Below, in pieces: positions 4,842-42,134 of a stretch of DNA of 64,000 nucleotides. Position numbers and translations under genes: made by a program. The DNA comes from Actinoplanes utahensis (GTDB taxonomy: Bacteria; Actinomycetota; Actinomycetes; Mycobacteriales; Micromonosporaceae). The first letter of the stretch is position 1. Every line of letters starts with the position of its first letter. The stretch lies in assembly GCF_016862455.1 (NCBI RefSeq), contig NZ_BOMZ01000015.1:124001-188000 (forward strand). The letters are read 5' to 3'. Below the pieces are notes generated by a model. That model was not told the origin of the DNA. It saw only the letters and a list, made by a program, of their open reading frames with translations, and did no database searches.

Positions 4842-5681
4842 ATGGGAATCCGTAAGTACAAGCCGACCACGCCGGGCCGTCGTGGCTCCAGCGTCGCCGA
4901 CTTCGCCGAGATCACCCGGTCGACGCCGGAGAAGTCTCTGCTGGTTCCGCTGCCCAAGAAGGGCGGCCGCAACGTCCACGGCCGGATCACCACCCGGCAC
5001 CAGGGCGGTGGCCACAAGCGGCAGTACCGGCTGATCGACTTCAAGCGGAACGACAAGGACGGCGTGCCGGCCAAGGTCGCTCACATCGAGTACGACCCCA
5101 ACCGCACCTCCCGCATCGCTCTGCTGCACTACGCCGACGGTGAGAAGCGCTACATCCTCGCGCCGAAGGACCTGAAGCAGGGCGACCGCGTCGAGTCGGG
5201 CGTGGGCGCGGACATCAAGCCGGGGAACAACCTTCCCCTGCGCAACATCCCGGTCGGTACGACGGTCCACGGCGTGGAGCTTCGTCCCGGCGGTGGCGCC
5301 AAGCTGGCCCGCTCGGCCGGCGTCGGCATCCAGCTGCTCGGCCGTGAGGGTGCCTACGCCACGCTGCGTATGCCGTCCGGTGAGATCCGGCGCGTCGACA
5401 TCCGCTGCCGCGCGACGGTCGGCGAGATCGGCAACGCCGAGCAGTCGAACATCAACTGGGGTAAGGCCGGCCGTATGCGGTGGAAGGGCAAGCGCCCCAC
5501 CGTCCGTGGTGTCGCCATGAACCCCGTCGACCACCCGCACGGTGGTGGTGAGGGTAAGACCTCCGGTGGTCGTCACCCGGTCAACCCGGCTGGTAAGCCG
5601 GAGGGCCGTACCCGCCGCAAGGGCCAGGAGAGCGACAAGCTGATCGTTCGCCGCCGCTACGCCACCCGCAAGCGCGGGTAA
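4842..5681 (+). CDS. rplB: 50S ribosomal protein L2
   Basis: L2 is a core 23S protein needed for subunit joining and peptidyl-transferase activity. The product has 279 residues. It begins [14 protein letters not shown] and carries the late signature [15 protein letters not shown] (about residues 226-240), whose His is the conserved one near the catalytic centre. The start is ATG 4842. The lysine- and arginine-rich C-terminus is normal. Confidence 0.99.
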
Positions 5682-5694
5682 CGGGAGTTAAAAG

Positions 5695-5976
5695 ATGCCT
5701 CGCAGCCTGAAGAAGGGCCCGTTCGTCGACGACCACCTGCTCAAGAAGGTGGAAGTTCAGAACGAGAAGAACTCGAAGAACGTCATCAAGACCTGGTCGC
5801 GGCGTTCGACCATCATTCCGGACATGCTCGGACACACGATCGCCGTGCACGACGGGCGCAAGCACGTCCCGGTGTTCGTCACCGAGGCCATGGTCGGTCA
5901 CAAGCTCGGCGAGTTCGCTCTGACCCGTACGTTCAAGGGTCACGAGAAGGACGACCGCAAGAGCCGTCGTCGCTAG
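5695..5976 (+). CDS. rpsS: 30S ribosomal protein S19
   Basis: S19 is a head protein that pairs with S13 and contacts the A-site tRNA region. Its 93 residues match the family: [19 protein letters not shown], then [21 protein letters not shown] and [17 protein letters not shown]. The start is ATG 5695 after GGGAG. It lies 13 bases after rplB and 31 before rplV. Confidence 0.99.
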
Positions 5977-6007
5977 TCAGTCCACGGATAAGAAAGGGGT
6001 TACAGCG

Positions 6008-6451
6008 ATGCCAGTTAAGAATGACGCTCCGGCGCTTCCGGGCTCTCGCGCAGTTGCGAAGCACGTCCGCATTTCGCCGAGCAAGGCTCGCCGTGTGATC
6101 AACCTCGTCCGCGGTCTGCCCGCGAAGGAGGCTCTGATCGTCCTGCAGTTCGCGCCGCAGTCGGCGAGCGAGCAGGTCTACAAGGTGGTCGCCAGCGCGA
6201 TCGCGAACGCTGAGAACAACGAGCGGCTCGACCCCGACACTCTCCTCATCAGTGAGGCGTTCGTCGACGAGGGTCCGACGCTGAAGCGTTTCCGTCCGCG
6301 GGCGCAGGGCCGGGCGTACCGGATCCGCAAGCGCACGTGTCACATCACCATCGCGGTCGAGGCGGTCCAGACGGCCCGCCCGGCGAAGAAGGCTGCGGCC
6401 AAGAAGGCTGCGCCGCAGGCCGAGTCCCAGAGCACGGAGGGTGCCGAGTAA
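6008..6451 (+). CDS. rplV: 50S ribosomal protein L22
   Basis: L22 lines the exit tunnel with its extended beta-hairpin, where macrolide resistance changes can occur. The 147 residues comprise a normal core ([19 protein letters not shown], then [19 protein letters not shown]) and a C-terminal Ala/Lys/Glu-rich tail of about 30 residues typical of actinobacteria. A strong AAAGGGG precedes ATG 6008. The TAA stop shares its last A with the rpsC ATG. Confidence 0.98.
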
Positions 6452-30353: not shown

Positions 30354-33300
30354 TCACAGCTCGTCGGCGTCCTCGTCGGCGAGCTGGTTGGCTGGTTGCT
30401 TCGCCGCCGGCAGGAAGTCGTAGATCGGTTCCTGGGCGGGTCCCGGATCCGCGATCGGCCGATTGCGTTCGGCCAGCTCGGCCATGGCGGCGCGGGCGGC
30501 CTCCGCGTCGCGTTCCGGTTTTGCGGCGGGCGTGCGGTCCGTGTCGGTTTCTGGTTTTTCAGTGGGCGTGCGGTGCGCGTCGCGTTCCGGTTTTGCGGTG
30601 GGCTTGCGGTCCGCCTCGACTTCCAACCCCTCGGGGGTACGGGGTGCGCGTTCGAGTTCCCCGCCAGTGTTCTCAGTGGTGCCGATGGGGTCGTCCGGCG
30701 CGCCCTTCCGGGAGCGGGACGTGCGGCGGCCGCCTCGCTTCCGGGCGGGGCGTTTCGGTTCCTCGCTCTGCGGACCGCTGGGAGTATCGGTCCGAGGGCT
30801 GCTGCCCTCGCTCGCGCCCTCCGGTTGCGTGGTCACCTCTGCCAGTTCGGCGAGTTCCTTCTTGAGCTCCTCGATCGATTCCGGCGCGGTCGGATCCACG
30901 GAACCCTCGGCGGCGCCGGTCTCGGCCTTCTCAACGGAGTCGGCACTTCCGGCGGCGGCCTCGGCCTTCTCCGACGGCTCGGCACTCTCGGTGGTCCCGC
31001 TGCGCCCGTCAGCCTCGGCTCGCTCATCGGTCCTGGTTTGCCCGACGGCTTCGATCCGCTCGTCCGGGCTGGTCTGCTCGTCCCCCGCTGCCTCGGCTGA
31101 GTCGGTGCCTTCGCTCTTCCGGTGCCTGCCACCCGTCGGACTCTCCGGCTCTGTGGCATCAGACACAGCCGCTTCCGGAGACACCGACCCGGGCCCGATC
31201 CTCCCGCTCGGGCGGGCCTCGGATTCGGCCCGCTCCAGCAGCGAGACCTCGGATTCCGGCAGCGGGGCAGGCCGATCTCCAGCAGGCGCGGAATCGGCCT
31301 GGCCGGGCAGCGCTTCGGACCTTTCGTCAGGCTGCTCTCCGGTCGATGCGTCGAGTGGCTTGCCGGGCACCACGTGGGGCCTTTCAGCCGGTGCATCAAG
31401 CGGCTCGCTGGGCAGCGTGCCGGACACTTTGCCGACCAGGCCGGCCGGTTCGGGAAGCTGGGTGTCGCTCGGCGTGGCCGGTTCGCGATGCTCGGCGTCG
31501 CTTGCCGTGGCGGTGGAAAGCTTCGGGGTGAGGTGTGCCTGCCTCGTTCCGGAGGACAGTACTTCGAGAGGTGCCGCGGTCCGGGGACCGAAGGGCGGAA
31601 GGTCTCCGACAGTGACGGCCGACTGCTCGGGCCCGGCGCTCGGCGGGACCGCCGCGGCAACCTTCGCCTTGGCACGTGAACGCTTGGCCACCGCTTTGGC
31701 GGGCGCCTTCGCCGGGCCTGCGGAGGCAGCGGCCTTCGTTGTCCGCTTCCTGGCGGGAGTCCTCTTCGCTGAGGCGCTCGTGGCCACCGGGGCTGCTGGT
31801 TCCCCGGATTGTGCCGCCTGGGCGGTCGCCATGCTGCCGTCGACATCGCCCGGCTCTGCGGGCCGGGCGGCTTCCTCGGCTTTCGAAGTCTCCTCGAGCC
31901 CGCCTTCGCTGACAGGCACGAGGGGCGAAGGCTGATCGGGAGAGCCGGAACCGGCAGGCTCGGTACCAGTAGCCGCCGTCGACGGCGGGCCCGAGCGGGT
32001 GACCGCACCCTCCGTCGCCGGCATCTCCGCCCGTCTGGCCGGTGATCTGGGCTTGGGCGTAGCTGGAGCAGCTTCGGAGGTTCCGGCCGCCGCCTCGATC
32101 CGATACCGGTAGAGAATCCCCTCATCCCTGACCACGAAGTCGTCGGCGCCATCCGGCCGCCGCCAGGTGAGGATCATCTGCCCGTACTTCTCGGCCAGCT
32201 TCACCAACGCCGGAAACGTGTCGACTACGACGACCGGCTTCCCCGGCGGACTGGCCATCGGCTCCACCGGAACGATCAGATGCGGGTAGCGGCGCTGGAT
32301 CTGCGCCCGCGTCCGCAGCGGGACGTGGCGTGCTGCCATGGCGGCCACGATCCCCGCCGCGGTCAGCGCCATGAGGAGGAGATACACGGCATACAGTCGT
32401 GCTTGTGGCGCGGTGAGGACGGTGTGACCGAACGCGCCTATCTGCCGCGTTCGAACCACGCTGCCGGTGCTCGATTGATCGACGACCAGCGCATCCGGGC
32501 CGCCCACGAGGGTGAGCAGCAGCGGGGCGAGATTCAGGGAGATCCGCGGCGCGAAGGTGGAGCCGTCGTCATGTTGAACCGCCGCTGTGATCTCGGCCGT
32601 GATCGGCCCCATGTCGGCGCCGATCGCTTCACCTGCCGCCTTCACCCGTTGCGTCCAACTGTCCAAGTCGAGCTGAACGGTGTCGGCGTATCGCTCGCTG
32701 GTGAATCGCTTCTGCTGCATCAACTGCAGCGTTTTGTGCCAACCGTTCTCCGCGGACAGCCGGGCGGTGACGGTGATGTTCCCGGCTTCGCCCGCATACT
32801 GCATGTGCAGATTGACGAGGTCGGTCAACTTCCGGAAGACCGGGTCGGGTGAGTAGACCGTGGTGCCGTCGTAGGCCGCCGACGGCGTGACCTCCGCCGA
32901 ATAGGAGAAAGTCATCGACTCACCGGGCCGCCCACTGCCCTCCACAGTCTCGGTCACCGGTTTCATCCAGCCGAGGACTCCCAGCGCCAGGCCTACCGCG
33001 CCGGCTAGCGCAGCAACGGCGGCGAGCGCACGTAGTGCGGGGTGAAGGCGGCTGACAGCCTTGATCACCACCGCCGCGGTAGCCCACGAGCCGCCTCCGC
33101 CAGACATGCCCTTCGCTCTCTTCTTCCGGCGACCACGCGAGATGTCTCTTCGCGTCTTGGCCGCGCCCGCTCCGCCGCTGACGAACAGGAAGCTGAGCAT
33201 GCCCAGGCCGGTCGGGCTGAGTATCGGTTGCAGCCAGGCTCCGCCCCCGGGAACATGCAGGACGGCACGTCCGATCATCTGTTCGGCGGTGGGGTTGTCG

Positions 33301-33569
33301 ACGTCTATCGACTCGTTGTTGTCTCCTTTGAGGACATAGCCGGCCGCGCCGTCGCCGCCGATGATGCGATGCAGCACCTCGATCTGGCCGTTGGCACCAT
33401 GGTAGGCAGCTATCTGCCCCGTTTCGTACGTATCGAATTTGATGACGAATACCAGGTCGCCCTGGTGGTACACCGGTTGCATGCTGATGCCGTGAGTGAC
33501 GACATATGAAATGCGATCCGTGGTGACCGCCCAAGCGCCAATGGCCGCCATCACGAGGATGGCGGCCAT
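30354..33569 (-). CDS. SipW-type signal peptidase fused to a DUF5305-like region and a long disordered tail
   Basis: The protein has 1071 residues. Residues 1-17 are a membrane segment. Then come GISMQP with the nucleophile Ser29, VLHRII with His67 in place of the usual Lys, and LKGDNN (80-85); Ser-His is the SipW/archaeal-ER arrangement. Further membrane segments lie at about 115-132 and 176-200. The extracytoplasmic segment (205-385) and last membrane helix (388-412) resemble DUF5305 proteins, which often accompany such peptidases. From about 495 on the chain is low-complexity, with a histone-like KRTPARKRTTKAAAS stretch and 12-residue repeats such as RTPAAKPERDAE. The start is ATG 33569; the frame is open further upstream without a standard start codon. 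The likely substrate is encoded just upstream. Confidence 0.8.
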   Translation of the reverse strand: MAAILVMAAIGAWAVTTDRISYVVTHGISMQPVYHQGDLVFVIKFDTYETGQIAAYHGANGQIEVLHRIIGGDGAAGYVLKGDNNESIDVDNPTAEQMIGRAVLHVPGGGAWLQPILSPTGLGMLSFLFVSGGAGAAKTRRDISRGRRKKRAKGMSGGGGSWATAAVVIKAVSRLHPALRALAAVAALAGAVGLALGVLGWMKPVTETVEGSGRPGESMTFSYSAEVTPSAAYDGTTVYSPDPVFRKLTDLVNLHMQYAGEAGNITVTARLSAENGWHKTLQLMQQKRFTSERYADTVQLDLDSWTQRVKAAGEAIGADMGPITAEITAAVQHDDGSTFAPRISLNLAPLLLTLVGGPDALVVDQSSTGSVVRTRQIGAFGHTVLTAPQARLYAVYLLLMALTAAGIVAAMAARHVPLRTRAQIQRRYPHLIVPVEPMASPPGKPVVVVDTFPALVKLAEKYGQMILTWRRPDGADDFVVRDEGILYRYRIEAAAGTSEAAPATPKPRSPARRAEMPATEGAVTRSGPPSTAATGTEPAGSGSPDQPSPLVPVSEGGLEETSKAEEAARPAEPGDVDGSMATAQAAQSGEPAAPVATSASAKRTPARKRTTKAAASAGPAKAPAKAVAKRSRAKAKVAAAVPPSAGPEQSAVTVGDLPPFGPRTAAPLEVLSSGTRQAHLTPKLSTATASDAEHREPATPSDTQLPEPAGLVGKVSGTLPSEPLDAPAERPHVVPGKPLDASTGEQPDERSEALPGQADSAPAGDRPAPLPESEVSLLERAESEARPSGRIGPGSVSPEAAVSDATEPESPTGGRHRKSEGTDSAEAAGDEQTSPDERIEAVGQTRTDERAEADGRSGTTESAEPSEKAEAAAGSADSVEKAETGAAEGSVDPTAPESIEELKKELAELAEVTTQPEGASEGSSPRTDTPSGPQSEEPKRPARKRGGRRTSRSRKGAPDDPIGTTENTGGELERAPRTPEGLEVEADRKPTAKPERDAHRTPTEKPETDTDRTPAAKPERDAEAARAAMAELAERNRPIADPGPAQEPIYDFLPAAKQPANQLADEDADEL

Positions 33570-33678
33570 TGTCAGACGTCGAACCTTGGAAACGATGGTG
33601 AACTCCAGGCGAGCGGATCGCGCCCGCGGCGAGTGACTGACCCCCGGCTTCGCTTACGGTTCGAGCATCTCAGTTGCG

Positions 33679-34131
33679 TTACGCGACCGTGGGCACAACG
33701 GCGACGTCGAGCGTGGTCACCCCGGTGTAGTTGCCGGTCGGGTCCAGGCAGGTCCACGCGGTGCCGCCGGCGCTCGTGCACGCGTAGAAGAGGCTGTTCT
33801 TGTTCGTCGAGGTGCCGCCACCCGACGCGATCTTGACCTTGACGGAGGATGTGACGGGCAGTGTGACGCCGCTGCCGCCGTCAATCTTGATGTTCACGCC
33901 GGTGATCAGGTTGGGGTCGGTGCCGTCGTGGGTGAAGACCGCCTCGGTCAGCCGGGCGCCGACGACAGACTTCGGGGCGGCCAGCGCACCACCAGCGATG
34001 ATCTGGCCGGTGCCGTCGATGTTGCCGCCGACGAGTGCGGCGGTGACGCCGTTCGCGGTGAAGGCGGTGGAACCGGCGGCGACCGCACCGGCGACAGCGA
34101 CGCCGCCGATGAGCTGAATGATGTTACGCAT
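33679..34131 (-). CDS. Small secreted protein, probable substrate of the adjacent signal peptidase
   Basis: The start chosen is ATG 34131, preceded by AGGGGAGA; the longer frame upstream has no ribosome site. The 150-residue product has a signal peptide (MRNIIQLIGGVAVAGAVAAG, then STAFTANG) resembling SipW-dependent signals, which end near an AxFT-type motif. The mature part is Gly/Thr/Ala-rich, predicted beta, and has two cysteines close together (YACTSAGGTAWTCLD) likely forming a disulfide. I do not recognise a named family; TasA or camelysin-like fibre proteins are the functional analogy. It is 109 bases upstream of the peptidase gene on the same strand. Confidence 0.75.
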   Translation of the reverse strand: MRNIIQLIGGVAVAGAVAAGSTAFTANGVTAALVGGNIDGTGQIIAGGALAAPKSVVGARLTEAVFTHDGTDPNLITGVNIKIDGGSGVTLPVTSSVKVKIASGGGTSTNKNSLFYACTSAGGTAWTCLDPTGNYTGVTTLDVAVVPTVA

Positions 34132-34550
34132 ATGTATGTCTCCCCTGGTCGGTAACCCAGCCGGCCTCGTGGGCCCTGTGGCTTTGCGTCCCCGGCTCAC
34201 ACCGGGTTTGCGTTTGTCGGCCCGAGCGAGTTGCTCGTTTTGCTTACGCCGGGTTGTTCGGTCGGGGAGGGGTGGGGATGAGCCCGAAGCCCATGATTTC
34301 TTGCGGCGATTTCGCGGTTTCCGCACCTGAGACCGAGGGAGGTGCTATCGAGTTGCCGGACGGTTTCCGAGGCTGGTCGCGGGCCGGAGGAAACGGGCGG
34401 AACGGCGCGGGGCGACCGTCGAGAGGACGGTCGCCCCGCGTACCAGGAAAGGGTTTTTTCGGGGGGTGAAGTTCGTCGGCCGTCGCTCGGGGATGTCATG
34501 CCGGGAGGGTGACGGGCGTGGGTGAGGCCGACGAGCCGGGCGGCTGTGGG
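34132..34550. other. 419-bp gap between the secreted protein and the ribonuclease
   Basis: No gene was recognised. The part next to 34131 holds the ribosome site and presumably the promoter of the secreted protein. At 34406-34440 lies a strong terminator hairpin for the ribonuclease gene. Between them I see nothing conserved except a small CGAGC/GCTCG stem at 34223-34237. Confidence 0.6.
34406..34440 (-). terminator. Terminator hairpin, likely of the ribonuclease gene
   Basis: A 15-bp perfect stem (34406-34420 with 34426-34440) with a 5-nt loop lies about 110 bases downstream of the ribonuclease stop on the minus strand. A T-run (TTTTTT at about 34454) lies on the plus side. Confidence 0.7.
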
Positions 34551-34970
34551 TCAGAGCTTGTAGAAGGTGACGTAGTGGTCGGGGGTGAAGTAGGCGACGC
34601 GGGTGCTGCGGTTGACGACGATGCGGTAGGCGTCCCGGGAGGCGCCGCGGTTGCGGGAGTAGACGTCGTACTCCGAGTAGGTCGCGGAGGGGAGCTGGCC
34701 CTCGCGGTTGTAGAAGGTGCCGCCGGTGTAGTTGTAGTTGCCGTAGGGCCACGAGTACCAGCCGGCGGAGGTCGGCCAGCCCAGGGACTTCCAGCCGTTG
34801 AAGGCGGTGCGGGCGGCGGAGCAGCGGCTGATCGTGCAGCTGGAGTAGACGGCGGCATGGGCGGCGTCGGTGGCGGTCGGGGCCACTACCGCGGGGGCGA
34901 CGAGGGCGGTGCCGGAGAGGGCGAAGACCAGGGCCAGGCCGGAGAGGAACCGGCCGATGCGGGTGCTCAT
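34551..34970 (-). CDS. Secreted guanyl-specific ribonuclease (RNase Sa/T1 family)
   Basis: An extracellular ribonuclease cleaving after G is the family activity. The 139 residues begin with a signal peptide (about 1-40, ending AHA). The catalytic triad of RNase Sa is matched in spacing: Glu100 in TYSEYDV, Arg116 in DAYRIVV and His132 in TPDHYVTF. FYNREGQLP is the substrate-binding segment. Cys45 and Cys50 are close together, unlike the distant disulfide of RNase Sa. No barstar-like inhibitor gene is next to it. The start is ATG 34970. Confidence 0.93.
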   Translation of the reverse strand: MSTRIGRFLSGLALVFALSGTALVAPAVVAPTATDAAHAAVYSSCTISRCSAARTAFNGWKSLGWPTSAGWYSWPYGNYNYTGGTFYNREGQLPSATYSEYDVYSRNRGASRDAYRIVVNRSTRVAYFTPDHYVTFYKL

Positions 34971-35360: not shown

Positions 35361-37373
35361 TCAGGCGCCGCCGAGGCCGTTGACCCAGTCGACGTAGTCC
35401 TCCTCACGGCCGCCTTTCTGGCCGCGCTTCTGGTCCTGCGGGGCGGGGGCAACCGGAGGCGGGGACACCGGCTGCGGGTGTGGCAGCGGGGCGCTGGCGG
35501 CGGTCGGCTCGGGGACGAGCGGGCCGCGCGGGGTGCGCGACCCGCGGGCGGCGACCCGCGGATGCTCGGCCGTGTCGATGCCGACGCGAGGGCTGGGCTG
35601 GGTGGCCGTGAAGCCGTTGAAGGAGCCGGTGTCGCCGGTCAGGGCGGCGGACGGTGTGGCGGGGGGCGGCGGCTCGGGGGTGGACCGGCGGGTACGCCAT
35701 CCGCGCCGCAGGCCGCCGCTCGCGTTCTTGGCCGCCGGCTGCTGTCCGGAGAAGCGGGCCTCCGCGGAGGAGTCCTGCGGGCCGCCGAAGCCGGGCGCTT
35801 CCGCTGACGCCGGGCCGCCCGGGCCGGAGGGCTGGGTGGGGATGCCGGAGGCGGCGGCACGGACCGGGACGCCGGAACCGCTGACCTGGGCCGAGGCTTT
35901 CCGGGCGACCGGCGCGGGAATGCCGGGAACGGCGGCCGGGGCGAGGGCACCCGGAACGCCGGCCGACGCGGGGCCCCCGGGGGCCGGAGTGCCGGGAACC
36001 GTGCCCGAGCCGGACCGGCCGGGAACCGAGCCTGAGGCGGACCGGCCGGGAACCGAGCCTGAGGCGGACCGGCCGGGAGCCGGGGCCGCGGCCGGGATTC
36101 CCGGGGTGGCTCCGGTGGCCTGGCTGCCGGACGAGGGGAAGCCGGCGGTGGGGTTCTGGGTGAAGGTGGTTCCGCTGCCCGAGGTGAAGGGTGACGAGGC
36201 GGCGGGCGTGGCGGCCAGGTCCTGGAGCGGGTGTGGCCGGTCGGCGACGGAGAAGACACCGGTGTCGGACGGGCGCAGCTGGTCGTCGGGGCGCTGCGCG
36301 GCGGCGGCCGCGGCGGCCGCGATGGCGGACTGGTGGGGGACGTCGCGGCGGGGGAGACCGGTGGCGGCCTCCGGCCCGGCGGCGGAGAGGTTGCCGGTGG
36401 CCGAGGGGTTGCCGGTGGGGGAGGGGTTGCCGGTCGGGAGGTTGCCGGCGGAGGGGGCGGGGTCGGAAGGGTCGGCGGCGGAGGGGGCGCCCGCGGAAGT
36501 GGCCGGCTCGGCGGAGCGGGCCCGCTCGGGCGCGCCGCGGAGGATGGCGGCCAGGACCGAACCGAGGACGCCGGCGCCGCTGGCGGTCATCGCCGCCCAG
36601 TACGGGTGGAGGCCGAGGCCGGAAGCCGAACCGGGGCCGGCGATCAGGTAGGCCAGGGTCAGCAGTGCCGGGCCGGCCAGGCCGCTGAGTGCGACGGCCG
36701 TGGTGGAGAACTTTCGGCCGCGGGCGGCCCAGCCGATGGAAAGGCCGGTGAGCAGGGCGATCAGCGGCATCGTCGCGAAGGCGATGTAGTCGGCGGCGGA
36801 GGCCGGGATGAAACCGCCTTCCAGCACACCGAGGCGGACCGCCGCGGGGGTCTTGCCGGGTGCCAGGGACGGCACGACCGAGATCAACGCCACAGTCCAG
36901 ACGGCGAGGCTCAGGGTGGTGAGGCTCCAGCGGGCGACCGCCTTGGCCGCCGCGGCGTATCCGGCGAAGATGCCGATCGCCGCGCCGAGGCCGGCGCAGA
37001 TGCCGATGACGAGGACCGGCTGGACTCCGGTGATCTGGGCGGATCGGGCCGGCTGCATGGTGAGCGGCAGGACGGCGAGGGCGCCTGTTCCGGCGGCCAG
37101 GCCCATCGCGAGCGCGCCGCCGCTGCCGACCGGGCGGGGTGACCAGCGGGGCCGCAGCCCGGTGGCGACCACGGCGCCGATCGCCGCGGCGGTCATGGTG
37201 ATCCATGCGACCCAGGCGAGTTGCGCTGTCCATTGGTCACGCTGAGTGATTTCCAGGGTCTGGTCGAGCCGCACCATGCCGAGCCCGTAGGCGATGCCGA
37301 GTTGGCCGGCCCCGACGACCGCGGCGGCCGTGATGGTAGCGGCCAGCAGCTTCAGCCAGCTCCGAAATGCCAT
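35361..37373 (-). CDS. Multi-pass membrane protein with low-complexity C-terminal half
   Basis: The function is not recognised. I place the start at ATG 37373 (MAFRSWLKLLAATITAAAVV); a GTG at 37382 would add three residues. Residues 1-280 contain about eight membrane helices with short loops. Residues 290-650 are Pro/Ala/Gly/Ser-rich, including 9-residue repeats GRSASGSVP. The C-terminus turns conserved-looking again (QDQKRGQKGGREEDYVDWVN, GLGGA). The layout suggests a membrane anchor with a long cytoplasmic tail ending in a short linear motif. It is monocistronic and divergent from the conservon. Confidence 0.75.
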   Translation of the reverse strand: MAFRSWLKLLAATITAAAVVGAGQLGIAYGLGMVRLDQTLEITQRDQWTAQLAWVAWITMTAAAIGAVVATGLRPRWSPRPVGSGGALAMGLAAGTGALAVLPLTMQPARSAQITGVQPVLVIGICAGLGAAIGIFAGYAAAAKAVARWSLTTLSLAVWTVALISVVPSLAPGKTPAAVRLGVLEGGFIPASAADYIAFATMPLIALLTGLSIGWAARGRKFSTTAVALSGLAGPALLTLAYLIAGPGSASGLGLHPYWAAMTASGAGVLGSVLAAILRGAPERARSAEPATSAGAPSAADPSDPAPSAGNLPTGNPSPTGNPSATGNLSAAGPEAATGLPRRDVPHQSAIAAAAAAAAQRPDDQLRPSDTGVFSVADRPHPLQDLAATPAASSPFTSGSGTTFTQNPTAGFPSSGSQATGATPGIPAAAPAPGRSASGSVPGRSASGSVPGRSGSGTVPGTPAPGGPASAGVPGALAPAAVPGIPAPVARKASAQVSGSGVPVRAAASGIPTQPSGPGGPASAEAPGFGGPQDSSAEARFSGQQPAAKNASGGLRRGWRTRRSTPEPPPPATPSAALTGDTGSFNGFTATQPSPRVGIDTAEHPRVAARGSRTPRGPLVPEPTAASAPLPHPQPVSPPPVAPAPQDQKRGQKGGREEDYVDWVNGLGGA
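36017..36070 (-). repeat. Two 27-bp tandem repeats in the membrane protein gene
   Basis: Two exact 27-bp units (36017-36043 and 36044-36070) encode GRSASGSVP repeats, flanked by partial copies. A separate run of GNPSPT/GNPSAT-type repeats is encoded near 36390-36450. These are probably expansions of disordered linker sequence. Confidence 0.8.
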
Positions 37374-37936
37374 GCCGCGCACGTTACGGAATGTTCCGCA
37401 TGGTGCGCCAGTCCGGGGTTTGCTTCTTAAGGCACCCTAAAGTCGAGATCATCTATGATCGAGAATCTTCTATGAATATCAGTCACCTACGGTGATCCAT
37501 GGGCGACGTAGGGGCCACTTGCCAGACGATGGGTCCGAAGTGGACACTGTCGCGCACGGACACCGAGTCCGTCACGTCACGCTGTTTCTTGCCACCGTGT
37601 TCACCGAGGTCGGGGAGGGGAGCTCCCACATAGTGGTTGGAATCGCGATGCTGTCCGGTGACCGGGATCTCACGGATGGTGGCGTGTGAGGCATTCGTGC
37701 ACGTCAACCTCGCCGACGATGGACGTGCGGCAGACTCGCGCGCGGTTATCACCCGGACAGGTGAGCCTTTTGCGGGACCTTCCAGGCTTCCCAAGAGGTC
37801 GGTGTTCTGGTGAAATCGCCGCCGTGCCGGAAACGGCGCGGGCCTTGCTGCGGGCGCCGGACGGGGCCGGGCCGCGGCCTTCCATGGGCCGGCTCCTGCC
37901 GTGGTGCGGAGCGGGGACGACCGCGAAGGAGAAGTC
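37374..37936. other. 563-bp divergent intergenic region before the conservon
   Basis: No gene was recognised; a short open frame at 37686-37940 has no support. The stretch 37430-37500 is clearly richer in A and T than its surroundings and contains the palindrome GATCAT-CT-ATGATC (37447-37460), a possible operator between the divergent genes. AAGGAG at 37926-37931 is the ribosome site of the kinase gene. Confidence 0.5.
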
Positions 37937-40735
37937 GTGAGCACGGGACCCTCGCCCCAGGCCGCGCGGCCGACGTCGGGCGGCGGTTTCCGCGGGCTGC
38001 GGAACGCGCGCCTGCGCGTCAAGATCGCCGGTCTGCTGCTCGTGCCGCTGACCGCGGTGGTCGGTATGGCGTTCATGCGGTCGCTGGAGATCCGGCAGCA
38101 GTCCGAGGATTCCACCCGGGTGGTCCGGCTCGCCGTCCTCGGTTCCGAGCTCTCCGGGCTGGGCCGGCTCGTGCACGACGAGCGGATGGCCGCTCTCGAA
38201 TACCTCGCCGACGCGAACGCGCCGGAGACCGCGTACCGGGAGACGGGCAAGGCGGTGGACTCCCGGGTACGGGCGTTCCGCACCGCCCGCACCGAGATCA
38301 CCGAGGTGCCGGCCCGGGTCCGGGACCGGCTGGACCTGATCGACAAACAGCTCACCGGCCTGGCCCAGGCCCGGGTCGAGGTCAGCAGCCGGGCCGGTTC
38401 CGGTCTGGCCGCCACCTCGGAGCGGTACGGCGAGATCCTCGACGGCATCACCGGGTACGAGACGCTGCTGAGCCTGGAGGCCGGGCGCGGCCCGGTGGCC
38501 GACGGCCTCCGCGCGCTCGCCGACTTCTCCCGGGTCGAGTCGGCGGTCGCCGATCAAGCCGCGGTGGCGTTCGTGACCCGGGCCACGAACGACCGGGGCG
38601 CCGACCGCCAGCGGCAGTTGATCGCCGCGCAGGAGGCCCGCGCGAGCGCGTTGGCCGAGTTCCGTGCGATCGCCGGTGCCGGCCAGGTCGCGTCCGCTGA
38701 CGCGGTGCTCGCCGACGAGGCGGTGGCCCGGGCCGACCGGTTGTCCGCCGGGCTGGCCGGTGCCCAGCCGGCCGGCCCGGCCGAGCTGACCGACGCGTTC
38801 GGCGACGTGCTGGTGCTGGTCCGCGGTGCCGAAGTGGAGATCGAGAAGCAGGTCGGCGCGCTCGCCGAGGACGAGCGCTCGAAGACCGACCGGCTGGCCG
38901 CCGTCGAGTTCGTCAGCGTGCTGCTGGTCGTGTTCGCGGCGGTGGCGATCGGGGTGCTGCTGGGCCGGGCGCTGCTGCTGGCGGTGCGCCGCCTGCGGGA
39001 CGGCGCCCTCGCCGTCGCCCACCGGGACCTGCCGGCCGCGGTGGACCTGCTGCACGACGTCGGGAGCCTGGGCGAGGGTGGCGTGGAACGGGTCGTCGCG
39101 CAGACCCGCGATCCGATCCCGGTCACCGACCGGGACGAGTTCGGCCAGGTCGCCGAGGCGTTCAACATGGTCCATCGGGAGGCCGTCCGGATGGCCGCCG
39201 AGCAGGCGGCCCTGCGGACCAGCCTCTCCACCATGTTCCTCAGTCTGGCCCGGCGCAGTCAGTCGCTGGTCGACAAGATGATCGGCGAGCTCGACCAGAT
39301 CGAGCGGATCGAGGAGGACCCGAAGCGGCTGGCCCGGCTCTTCGAGCTGGACCACCTCGCCACCCGGATGCGCCGCAACGACGAGAACCTGCTGGTCCTG
39401 GCCGGCGCCGAGGTCGGCACCCCGCGCCGCGAGGACGCCCTGCTGGTCGACGCGCTGCGGGCCGCACAGTCCGAGGTGGAGCTGTACCACCGGATCGAGT
39501 TCGGCACGGTCGACACCGACGTGCTGATCAGCGCGGCAGCGGTCAACGACGTGGTCCGCCTGATCGCCGAGCTGCTCGACAACGCCACCCGCTTCTCCCC
39601 TCCGGCCACCGTGGTGGTGGCGCACGGCGGTGTCGTCGGCGACCACGCCGTGGTCCGGATCGAGGACCGTGGCCTGGGCATCTCCGCCGAGCAGATGGAG
39701 TCGCTGAGCAAGCGGCTGTCGGCACCGGCCGAAGTGGACGCGGGAACCTTCCGGCTGATGGGTTTCGCGGTGATCGGGCGGCTGGCAGCCCGGCACGGCA
39801 TCCGGGTCGAGCTGCGGTCCCCGAGCGAGGGCGGCACGGTCGTCGAGGTGACGCTCCCGGCCGGCATCGTGGTGCTGCCCGGCCGGGCAGCCGCCCCGCA
39901 GCCCCGAGCGGCCAGCTGGACCCGGCCCGGCCCGCCGCCGCAGGCGCCGCCGGGGGCGCCGCGCAGTCCCGAGGTGCGGCCACCGGTCCGGACCGCCCCC
40001 GCGCCGGCTCCGCCGCCGGTCCGGCCGCTCCCACCGATCGGCCCGCTGCCCGATCTGGATCTGCAGCCCACCCCGGACCGGCCGCCGCTGCCGTCACGTG
40101 TTCCCCGCGACCCCGAGCCGCCGACCCCGGACCGGCCGCCGCTCCCGACGCGGGTGCCCGGCGCGGCCGACACCTTCGCCCCGGACCCGGCGCCGCTGCT
40201 GTCACCCGTACCCCCGGCGCCGGAAGGAACCCCGGCCCCGGCGTGGGCGCAAGCCGCGGCAGCCTCCGTGACCGCGGAGGGAATCCGCTGGGAGATGCAG
40301 CACAGCTGGTTCGAGGGTGAGGCGGAGCCCGATCCGAGGCACGACATGCCGACCGCGGGGTACGCGCCACCACCGACCCCGGTGACCGTTTCGGCGCAAC
40401 CCGCACCGGAGCCGCCCCGTGCCGTCCCGACGCCCCGCCCGTCCGGGGACGACCGCTGGCGCACGTCGGCCGACGACGGCTGGCAGCGGGCGATGGCGGC
40501 GGCCGACCCGCAGGACGCCGGCACCACCGGTTCCGGGCTTCCGAAACGGATCCCGCAGGCCCAGCTCGTCCCCGGCGGGGTGCAGACGGCGCCGCGGGCA
40601 CAACATCGTCGTAGTCCGGATGAGGTTCGCGGGCTGCTTTCCGCGTACCACAGGGGAGTGCAACGGGGGCGGACGGACGGCGTTGCCGAAACCGCCGCCC
40701 CGGCAGGACAGGCTCCGAAGGAGAAGGATCAGTGA
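37937..40735 (+). CDS. cvnA: Conservon sensor kinase-like protein CvnA with nitrate-sensor-like domain
   Basis: This is the first protein of a conservon (cvnABCD), the actinobacterial four-gene signalling unit. The start chosen is GTG 37937 after AAGGAG, giving 932 residues. A membrane helix (about 30-47) precedes an extracytoplasmic helical sensor domain like NIT, then a second helix (about 322-342) and a HAMP-like linker. The segment LDHLATRMRRNDENLLVLAG and the HATPase (ELLDNATRFSPP, IEDRGLGIS) follow. No standard H-box is seen. The last 280 residues are Pro-rich and probably disordered. cvnB starts within its stop codon. Confidence 0.9.
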   Translation: MSTGPSPQAARPTSGGGFRGLRNARLRVKIAGLLLVPLTAVVGMAFMRSLEIRQQSEDSTRVVRLAVLGSELSGLGRLVHDERMAALEYLADANAPETAYRETGKAVDSRVRAFRTARTEITEVPARVRDRLDLIDKQLTGLAQARVEVSSRAGSGLAATSERYGEILDGITGYETLLSLEAGRGPVADGLRALADFSRVESAVADQAAVAFVTRATNDRGADRQRQLIAAQEARASALAEFRAIAGAGQVASADAVLADEAVARADRLSAGLAGAQPAGPAELTDAFGDVLVLVRGAEVEIEKQVGALAEDERSKTDRLAAVEFVSVLLVVFAAVAIGVLLGRALLLAVRRLRDGALAVAHRDLPAAVDLLHDVGSLGEGGVERVVAQTRDPIPVTDRDEFGQVAEAFNMVHREAVRMAAEQAALRTSLSTMFLSLARRSQSLVDKMIGELDQIERIEEDPKRLARLFELDHLATRMRRNDENLLVLAGAEVGTPRREDALLVDALRAAQSEVELYHRIEFGTVDTDVLISAAAVNDVVRLIAELLDNATRFSPPATVVVAHGGVVGDHAVVRIEDRGLGISAEQMESLSKRLSAPAEVDAGTFRLMGFAVIGRLAARHGIRVELRSPSEGGTVVEVTLPAGIVVLPGRAAAPQPRAASWTRPGPPPQAPPGAPRSPEVRPPVRTAPAPAPPPVRPLPPIGPLPDLDLQPTPDRPPLPSRVPRDPEPPTPDRPPLPTRVPGAADTFAPDPAPLLSPVPPAPEGTPAPAWAQAAAASVTAEGIRWEMQHSWFEGEAEPDPRHDMPTAGYAPPPTPVTVSAQPAPEPPRAVPTPRPSGDDRWRTSADDGWQRAMAAADPQDAGTTGSGLPKRIPQAQLVPGGVQTAPRAQHRRSPDEVRGLLSAYHRGVQRGRTDGVAETAAPAGQAPKEKDQ

Positions 40736-41139
40736 CCAGGCCCCCCACCATGCAGGACATGGGCTGGCTGCTCAGCAACTTCGCGGACAGCGTCGCCGGT
40801 ATCGCGCACGTGGTCGCGGTCTCCGCGGACGGGCTGCTGCTGGCGTCGTCCCGCGATCTGCCGCCGGATCGTGCCGACCAGCTCGCCGCGATCACCTGCG
40901 GCGTGGTCAGTCTCACCGAAGGCGCGTCCCGGATGTTCAACGCCGGTGTCGTGCAACAGACCATCATCGAAATGGACAGCGGTTATCTTTTCCTGATGTC
41001 CATCAGCGACGGTTCGTCGATGGCGGTCCTGGCGGCGCGCAGCTGCGACGTCGGTCAGGTCGGCTATGAGATGGCCCTGCTGGTGGAACGCGTCGGCGCG
41101 GCACTGTCGCCGGCGCCACGTGAGGCCGTCAGCCACTAG
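40732..41139 (+). CDS. cvnB: Roadblock/LC7 protein CvnB
   Basis: The small roadblock/longin-fold protein acts as partner of the CvnD GTPase, probably as activating or scaffolding protein. It has 135 residues; LLSNFADSVAGIAHVVAVSA, DGLLLASSRDLP and GYLFLMSISDGSSMAVLA are typical. The GTG start at 40732 overlaps the cvnA stop (GTGA). Confidence 0.93.
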   Translation: MTRPPTMQDMGWLLSNFADSVAGIAHVVAVSADGLLLASSRDLPPDRADQLAAITCGVVSLTEGASRMFNAGVVQQTIIEMDSGYLFLMSISDGSSMAVLAARSCDVGQVGYEMALLVERVGAALSPAPREAVSH

Positions 41140-41179
41140 TCGCCGGGGTTCGCCCCGGCGGAGACGAGGTGACCGCGAC

Positions 41180-41542
41180 ATGACACAGCCGCACGATCCC
41201 CGGGGCAACCTGGTGCGGCCGTACGCGGTCACCCGCGGCCGGACCGAACCGATCCGGGACATCCCGATCGAGGCGGTTCTGCTCGCCAGCCCGGCGGCCG
41301 TGCAGGAAGCGCGATTCGCCGGGCACGACAAGTACCGCATCGCCGCGCTGTGTGAGCCGAAGGCACTATCGCTCGCCGAGATCGCGGCGTTGACCCGGCT
41401 GCCCCTCGGGGTGGCCCGGGTGCTCGTCGCCGACATGGTCGCCGACGGGTTGCTTCAGCTGCACAGTGCCGCTCCCCGGACCGGGTTCACGGAGCGGATG
41501 GACCTGCTGGGAAGGGTGTTGGGTGGACTTCGCAACCTCTGA
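41180..41542 (+). CDS. cvnC: DUF742 protein CvnC
   Basis: The start chosen is ATG 41180 (MTQPHDPRGNLVRPYAVTRG), giving 120 residues; upstream frame is shadow. DUF742 proteins have a winged-helix-like core; here LSLAEIAALTRLPLGVARVL and VADMVADGLLQLH. Their exact role in the conservon is unknown. The 3' end overlaps cvnD by 20 bases. Confidence 0.92.
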   Translation: MTQPHDPRGNLVRPYAVTRGRTEPIRDIPIEAVLLASPAAVQEARFAGHDKYRIAALCEPKALSLAEIAALTRLPLGVARVLVADMVADGLLQLHSAAPRTGFTERMDLLGRVLGGLRNL

Positions 41543-42134
41543 GCGGACGCGGGCGCACCCCGCTGAGATCACCTCCGCGAAGATCGTCGTCGCGGGTGGT
41601 TTCGGCGTGGGCAAGACGACCCTCGTCGGTGCGGTCTCCGAGATCGAGCCGCTCACCACCGAGGCGGTGATGACCGTGGCCGGGGCCGGCGTCGACGACG
41701 CGTCGAAGGTGCCGGGCAAGGAGAGCACCACTGTCGCGATGGACTTCGGCCGGATCACCATGGCCGAGGATCTGATCCTCTACCTGTTCGGGACCCCGGG
41801 GCAGACCCGGTTCTGGTTCATGTGGGACGAGCTGATCCGGGGGGCGGTCGGTGCGGCGGTCCTGGTCGACACCCGGCGGCTCAGTGACGCGTTCGCGCCG
41901 CTCGACTACTTCGAGAACCGGCATCTGCCGTACCTGGTCGCGGTCAACTGCTTCGACGGCGCGCCCCGCTACGAGCCGGAGGAGGTCCGGGAGGCGCTCG
42001 CCATCCCGGCGCGGGTGCCGCTGCTGATGTGCGACGCCCGGCACCGCGATTCGGTGAAGGCCGTGCTGATCGGGGTGGTCGAGCACGCGATGGCCACCCT
42101 GGTGGCCGAGCACGAGCAGGCGGCGCCGGTCTAG
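41523..42134 (+). CDS. cvnD: Conservon small GTPase CvnD
   Basis: This Ras/MglA-like GTPase of the conservon has 203 residues from GTG 41523. G1 is GGFGVGKTT at 25-33, the switch/G3 region reads LFGTPGQTRFWFMW (GTPGQ instead of DxxGQ), and the G4-like motif is NCFD in place of NKxD, both usual for CvnD. It overlaps cvnC by 20 bases. It likely docks with CvnB and CvnA at the membrane. Confidence 0.93.
   Translation: MDFATSERTRAHPAEITSAKIVVAGGFGVGKTTLVGAVSEIEPLTTEAVMTVAGAGVDDASKVPGKESTTVAMDFGRITMAEDLILYLFGTPGQTRFWFMWDELIRGAVGAAVLVDTRRLSDAFAPLDYFENRHLPYLVAVNCFDGAPRYEPEEVREALAIPARVPLLMCDARHRDSVKAVLIGVVEHAMATLVAEHEQAAPV

Follow-up and report, generated by a model that had tools for sequence, protein, structure and literature searches.

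A SipW-like signal peptidase fused to DUF5305 in Actinoplanes: a candidate for surface-protein maturation under cytoplasmic control

Signal peptidases are usually viewed as unregulated housekeeping enzymes, and SipW, the dedicated endoplasmic reticulum (ER)-type enzyme that lies next to its own exported substrates TasA and TapA in Bacillus subtilis, is short and unfused. PMC10269814 reports that the TasA site is cut by SipW, and inefficiently by LepB. In Clostridium perfringens, enzyme and substrate likewise share an operon, and export and polymerisation of BsaA need SipW (PMC7395162). Here we describe a related gene pair in a 64,000-nucleotide stretch of Actinoplanes utahensis (assembly GCF_016862455.1, contig NZ_BOMZ01000015.1, positions 124,001 to 188,000; hereafter the window, numbered from its first letter), in which a SipW-like peptidase, a DUF5305 part and a long disordered tail lie on one chain. 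Like both described systems, it sets a dedicated ER-type peptidase next to an exported protein. Unlike here, the enzyme gene stands first in the C. perfringens operon, which also holds a two-component system, and a fusion is not mentioned for SipW in the accessible portion of PMC7395162. We read the pair, with a probability of roughly 0.6, as a dedicated SipW-like surface-protein maturation system whose enzyme is under cytoplasmic control.

The fused peptidase and its distribution

The listed frame at 30354-33569 (minus strand, as for all window features below unless stated) is open over 1071 codons without an internal stop, and the genome search finds the gene in single copy. With the start codon proposed below, the whole gene spans 30354..33596 and encodes 1080 amino acids (aa), compared with 1071 from the listed ATG at 33569. 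Residues 1-110 (33240..33569) form an ER/SipW-type signal peptidase domain with Ser29, His67-Arg68 and, in a KGDNN motif, Asp83. Residues 5-109 resemble TIGR02228, archaeal signal peptidase I (E 1.3e-12), and residues 13-89 align with SEC11C in the PDB (E 2.6e-5). Ser29, His67 and Asp83 are unchanged in 34 of 34 genus orthologues, giving a Ser-His dyad with an Asp in the GDN box; the assignment of Ser29 and His67 to a SipW/archaeal-type peptidase, made in a preliminary description of this DNA, is upheld. On PF00717 the window scores 17.9 bits against a cut-off of 23.3, which all eight fused relatives scanned exceed. The locus differs from the Bacillus SipW system in that its probable substrate matches no model of the TasA/TapA kind and its peptidase reaches 16.4 bits on NF046067, the Bacillus SipW equivalog, where the cut-off is 190.

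The DUF5305 part occupies residues 206-491 (32097..32954) and comprises a beta-rich domain, presumably extracytoplasmic, the last membrane helix and a small, presumably cytosolic domain (residues 414-491). PF17231 aligns with residues 277-489 over profile positions 1-217 (hmmscan, E 6.7e-5), and in the genome search its score in the window frame reaches 29.9 bits, against a cut-off of 29, once adjoining pieces are counted. The eight other fused relatives scanned all lie above that cut-off, at 32.7-58.6 bits. For both the SipW-type peptidase and the DUF5305 of the preliminary description a model gives a match (TIGR02228 and PF17231), with the window's own scores of 47.8 and 22.9 bits under the cut-offs of 51.85 and 29. 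The earlier picture of one chain made of a peptidase, a DUF5305-like part and a long disordered tail agrees with the domain scans, the frame and the tail composition. A literature search found no paper on DUF5305.

Among five core segments compared, the cytosolic domain 414-491 is the most conserved, with 77% mean identity (peptidase 65%, extracytoplasmic domain 46%), supporting an inward-facing function. Four membrane helices are suggested by hydropathy, by helix prediction and by the basic stretches that follow helix two and the final helix; the peptidase and the larger part of DUF5305 would then lie outside and the chain end inside. This topology is only a prediction, since the second helix lies under the hydropathy threshold and an extra segment (354-372) is flagged within the extracytoplasmic domain. 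The fold search with the model of the fusion returned nothing at E 0.001 (best 1.4e-3, OgpA), which says little because the mean predicted local distance difference test score (pLDDT) is 61 and the peptidase part is poorly modelled.

The distribution of the fusion was followed with one genome per species, and rows that are related do not count as independent. Public genomes, when scanned, yielded 13 loci from Actinoplanes/Paractinoplanes, fused in 13 of 13. Of the 67 genomes in the genus set, 39 give a match: the whole fusion in 36 and a weak peptidase-only match in three; 31 of 67 lack the whole fusion. The arrangement, which the preliminary description proposed to look for in other Micromonosporaceae, is found in the genus and in one other genus of the family, and an assembly join is ruled out because other genomes carry the same fusion.

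In the phylum set of 396 genomes, the search profile matches 24. The window's own gene and five genes of distant families hold both parts in one frame; the other 18 hold the peptidase part alone, and in the surroundings of ten of these DUF5305 was not found nearby. A DUF5305 search of the same 396 genomes gave five matches at E 1e-4, all of them the distant fused genes; the window's own DUF5305 fell short of this threshold, and the control genomes gave no match. The family set (101 genomes) yielded five matches at E 0.01, four above the cut-off, and in this search the controls Corynebacterium glutamicum and Lactococcus lactis also gave sub-cut-off matches at E 0.01. In the fifth family match (G066, 17.4 bits, sub-cut-off), neither peptidase nor DUF5305 was seen with custom hidden Markov models (HMMs). 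In the loci compared, DUF5305 is joined to a signal peptidase except in one fragment (L096), and the earlier view that it is a separate protein did not hold in the phylum set, with L096 and G066 as exceptions. That fragment (5019-6158) is a DUF5305 half without peptidase and with a short-tail type end, in a genome that also holds a fused gene (L095).

Archaeal coverage consisted of plasmid matches, three of which were looked at. These haloarchaeal plasmid stretches (L142, L143, L144), which rank with the nearest plasmid relatives of the peptidase part, carry signal peptidase I and vWA proteins, and in two of them proteins are annotated with a SipW-dependent-type signal peptide. A split DUF5305 beside these peptidases was considered and rejected: ten proteins on the three plasmids gave no Pfam DUF5305 match and E of at least 0.35 with the custom HMM.

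The upstream gene and the start of the fusion gene

Directly upstream lies a small exported protein of 150 aa (33679..34131), delimited by an alignment with 12 relatives and by HMM matches; that alignment places the listed start at 34326 too far upstream. Its leader (residues 1-26, 34054..34131) is far better conserved than the remainder, with mean pairwise identities of 72% vs 28% over 34 genus rows. An HMM built from 13 genus sequences matches directly upstream on the same strand in 41 of 41 loci having upstream sequence (36 of the genus, one of the other family genus and four of distant families; the 42nd, L081, is cut). In these 41 loci the upstream frame stops 81 to 165 bases short of the fusion-gene core. 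Scores range from 50.9 to 151.6 bits within the family and are weak in the four distant families (13.5-23.9 bits, E 1.2e-6 to 1.9e-3), with A-F-T-A kept. The leader end reads G-x-x-A-[FLM]-T in every one of the 34 genus rows, which recalls the Ala-Phe at the leader end of TasA (TWA-AFND; PMC10269814). Two Cys in the remainder are kept in the same 34 rows and absent from L095 and L077. One locus (L080) has additional leader-bearing copies upstream, and the window's genome shows no second relative at E 10. The pair stays together across two gene neighbourhoods, and the small protein is probably the dedicated substrate of the fused peptidase, judging from this pairing and the leader.

A general signal peptidase with many substrates, for which the upstream gene would be one of several or a mere neighbour, could look similar, as our search relied on likeness to the upstream protein and unrelated substrates would escape it. 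The pairing in 41 of 41 loci, its persistence in two neighbourhoods and the absence of the whole fusion from 31 of 67 genus genomes make this quite improbable. Beside ten stand-alone phylum peptidases (10 of 18 such genomes), no SipW-like leader was found on the same strand with a simple pattern that is perhaps too strict.

The small protein is kept apart from TasA and CalY, which, like the SipW-cognate signal, we take to be names of SipW-dependent fibre models. Its best weak matches, each in one member, are PF20567 (6.3e-4), ArlG (0.0097) and the fimbrial TafA (0.084). Fibre assembly by this protein is conceivable.

The fusion gene itself probably begins at a non-AUG codon. A GGAG-N6-ATC sequence (GGAG at 33603-33606, ATC at 33594..33596) lies nine codons above the listed ATG, giving the 1080-aa product, as judged by comparison of orthologues. 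In 30 of 34 orthologues, ATC, ATT or ATA follows a Shine-Dalgarno-like site (GGAG, GAGG, AGGA, GGGG or GGGA type, 4-10 bases ahead of the codon), 22 at -27 and eight at -24. The outgroup genes, L092 from another genus and L094 and L095, have ATG at -27 with GGGG ahead. At the core codon, which is ATG 33569 in the window, the same test finds no such site ahead in any of the 34 orthologues, and in L126 (GAG), L113 and L129 (both CTG) the usual start is unavailable because of the codon found there. Ile codons at the site (18 ATC, 8 ATT and 5 ATA in 31 rows) are less biased toward ATC than those of the gene body (726, 92 and 43; Fisher p 0.0006, with rows that are not independent).

This reading has a precedent in Streptomyces sigR, where a GTC start, shared by 32 of 34 species, is under repression by IF3 (PMC5472188). 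As there, the ratio of two operon products would be set by a conserved non-canonical start that follows a strong ribosome site. Unlike sigR, the codon is ATC, ATT or ATA, the gene encodes a membrane peptidase and the case here is comparative only. Folding of six loci gave strong hairpins near the start in L097 (z -3.9) and L120 (z -4.2), a moderate one in L098 (-2.5) and none in the window, L101 and L115.

The end of the chain

The disordered, presumably cytoplasmic tail comprises residues 492-1071 (30357..32096). Over residues 495-1071, A, P, E, K, R, T, S, D, G and Q make up 88% and aliphatic, aromatic and Cys residues 10%; no 19-residue segment exceeds 0.57 in hydropathy, and family scans found no match. 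GC content at codon positions (GC3 0.74-0.79, GC1 0.71-0.75) is not decisive for coding. A 36-bp tandem repeat (30502..30618) of 3.2 copies with 79% matches confirms the 12-residue charged repeats seen earlier. Near the end stands EPIYDFLP (residues 1047-1054, 30408..30431). Across the group this motif reads P-x-[YF]-D-F-L; each of the 18 complete long tails (18 of 18) holds it near the end, and its P, D, F and L codons show synonymous changes. It lies 12 to 23 residues from the chain end in 16 of the 18, 30 in L102 and 91 in L098. A chance reading frame is ruled out by this protein-level conservation. Elsewhere in the genome, [YF]DFLP has one DNA match, outside the listed reading frames of at least 60 aa of that strand; one match likewise came from the backward control.

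The tree holds 20 long-tail rows, 20 short ones (14 of the genus, L092 and five distant rows, which are long branches of unsure placing) and two in which a GGDEF domain replaces the tail. Among the long tails, L118, which stops at a contig end, and L119, which has a run of N, are incomplete. All 20 long rows fall on one side of a branch with support 100/99, consistent with a single origin; the GGDEF pair is supported at 100/100 and the 14 short genus rows at just 85/76. Tails measure 171-670 residues in the long group and 23-29 in the short group. In all 18 long-tail loci with enough downstream sequence, thiC lies in convergent orientation no more than about 0.6 kb from the stop, and in none of the 14 short-tail stretches was it present. 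The fusion is old and the long tail young. The tail appears to have arisen once, along with a move beside thiC, in whichever direction, and then to have been kept with a fixed motif.

These same data fit a tail that is a by-product: a stop lost beside convergent thiC would let the frame grow into neighbouring DNA, tolerated and unused. Confinement to one side of the tree, the constant presence of thiC, the variable length and low-complexity composition, and final codons overlapping the thiC end in L098, L100, L106 and L108 all agree with it. It does not readily explain why P-x-[YF]-D-F-L persists in 18 of 18 tails, 12-91 residues before the end and beyond the thiC overlap of about seven codons, or why all complete tails but that of L107 (17 of 18) hold at least one basic patch. 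As an account of an unused tail we hold it to be unlikely; it can explain the tail's origin better than its upkeep, and is compatible with a maturation enzyme under cytoplasmic control.

Two basic patches are present in the window, a Lys/Ala-rich one at about residues 601-637 (31659..31769) and a second at about 925-968 (30666..30797). They invite the idea, raised in the preliminary description, that the tail could act as a tether to DNA or a scaffold. The net charge of the window tail is -32, so that "histone-like" fits one patch only, and 19 of 20 long tails carry a negative charge (three of just -1 or -2; the non-negative one, L119, is apparently in a wrong frame after its N run). Patch positions vary, and the constant motif is not basic. 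With a net acidic tail that shrinks to 23-29 residues in the sister group, the proposed tether gained no direct support, and anchoring to DNA or the nucleoid seems improbable, on a par with the general peptidase.

The terminal motif might instead mimic the FtsZ C-terminal peptide and dock on SepF, directing secretion to septa. The layout of a disordered linker and a terminal peptide is the same, the window's own FtsZ ends in DDVDVPDFLKNGS, and [VI]-x-D-F-L is common to FtsZ and 14 of 18 tails. The FtsZ Asp and Pro at -4 and -2 from the Phe, conserved in the SepF complex (PMC7118173), are replaced by Pro and Tyr/Phe in the tail. Since the idea arose from the resemblance, the resemblance is no independent test of it, and we consider this mimicry the least credible of the alternatives.

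The tail is not the only solution at this end of the chain. In L094 (5778-7856) and L095 (4416-6512), Pfam and sequence comparison reveal peptidase-DUF5305-GGDEF genes (PF00990 E 4.8e-31 and 1.4e-30). The GGDEF motif reads EADNF (LEADNF), and an RPRD ahead of it retains RxxD. We take RxxD with a degenerate GGDEF motif to be a candidate inhibitory-site-type pocket for cyclic di-GMP. In keeping RxxD and losing the GGDEF motif the two presumably resemble PelD-type receptors, unlike which they are joined to a signal peptidase and not to a polysaccharide exporter. Conservation of the motif in 18 of 18 long tails, taken with the GGDEF swap, points to a cytoplasmic end that is maintained and can be exchanged. 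A further frame of L094 (8155-9450) looks PAS/kinase-like by eye.

Several genes surround the module. A small ribonuclease (34551-34970; PF00545 E 1.7e-10) with a signal-peptide-like start stays by the module in seven other loci. At 35361-37382, a 673-aa membrane-protein-like neighbour likewise carries a long low-complexity tail, whose end is conserved (YVDWVNGLGG; YVNWVNGLGG in L004); at E 1 it matches nothing in Pfam or NCBIfam. On the plus strand (37901-42000), a sensor-kinase-like gene and three small conserved genes, present in 8-9 of the other 13 loci, have a layout that we take to be an actinobacterial conservon. A protein with a Lamin Tail Domain follows the fusion gene in some short-tail loci (L010, 9563-10666, PF00932 E 1.1e-19; also L011 and L012).

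Proposed surface-protein maturation under cytoplasmic control

The locus is best described as a putative two-gene module. The upstream gene would supply a small exported protein whose leader is specialised, and the downstream gene a dedicated ER/SipW-type peptidase. On the latter chain, DUF5305 would set a beta-rich domain near the cut substrate on the outer side of the membrane, with the small conserved domain and the tail following on the inner side. After export, the peptidase is predicted to cleave the leader and free the mature protein, which DUF5305 might, more speculatively, hand to a surface polymer. The non-AUG start probably keeps the enzyme in short supply compared with its substrate. 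The cytoplasmic end would act as an exchangeable control or docking module: short, a degenerate GGDEF domain with RxxD, or a long tether whose P-x-[YF]-D-F-L would bind a cytosolic partner. Of these elements, the fusion, the catalytic residues, the pairing of the genes, the conserved leader and motif and the exchange of domains are read directly from sequence.

Several observations weigh against this reading. The fusion is dispensable, given its absence from nearly half of the genus genomes. None of the 13 members of the small protein's family examined with Pfam and NCBIfam matches a fibre-protein model, and its beta-rich structural model (mean pLDDT 66; best Foldseek E 0.11) yields no convincing fold. 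The two sequences with a GGDEF domain are close and represent a single exchange. The distant motif of L098 lacks the last Pro, and no partner of the terminal motif was found. Four of 34 orthologues fail the automatic start-pattern test: L101 has TTG, L104 combines an ATC that lacks a listed site with an in-frame stop at -33, and L108 and L124 have no candidate. Eight of the 30 start candidates sit one codon off the outgroup ATG, and a hairpin shared near the start was rejected by the six foldings.

Taken together, the fusion, the swappable tail and the unusual start suggest that release of a surface protein is controlled from inside the cell. A broader claim, that this is a peptidase family governed from within by a swappable input module linked through DUF5305 and by translation throttled at a conserved AUH start, is more tentative, and we would give it somewhat worse than even odds. 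A literature search for Actinoplanes missouriensis and signal peptidase returned matches whose titles and opening abstract lines look unrelated. If the reading is true, a dedicated peptidase with swappable cytoplasmic modules would offer a direct handle on the internal gating of surface-protein maturation. DUF5305 gains a genetic context, and actinomycetes gain a further candidate for a conserved non-canonical start beside Streptomyces sigR.

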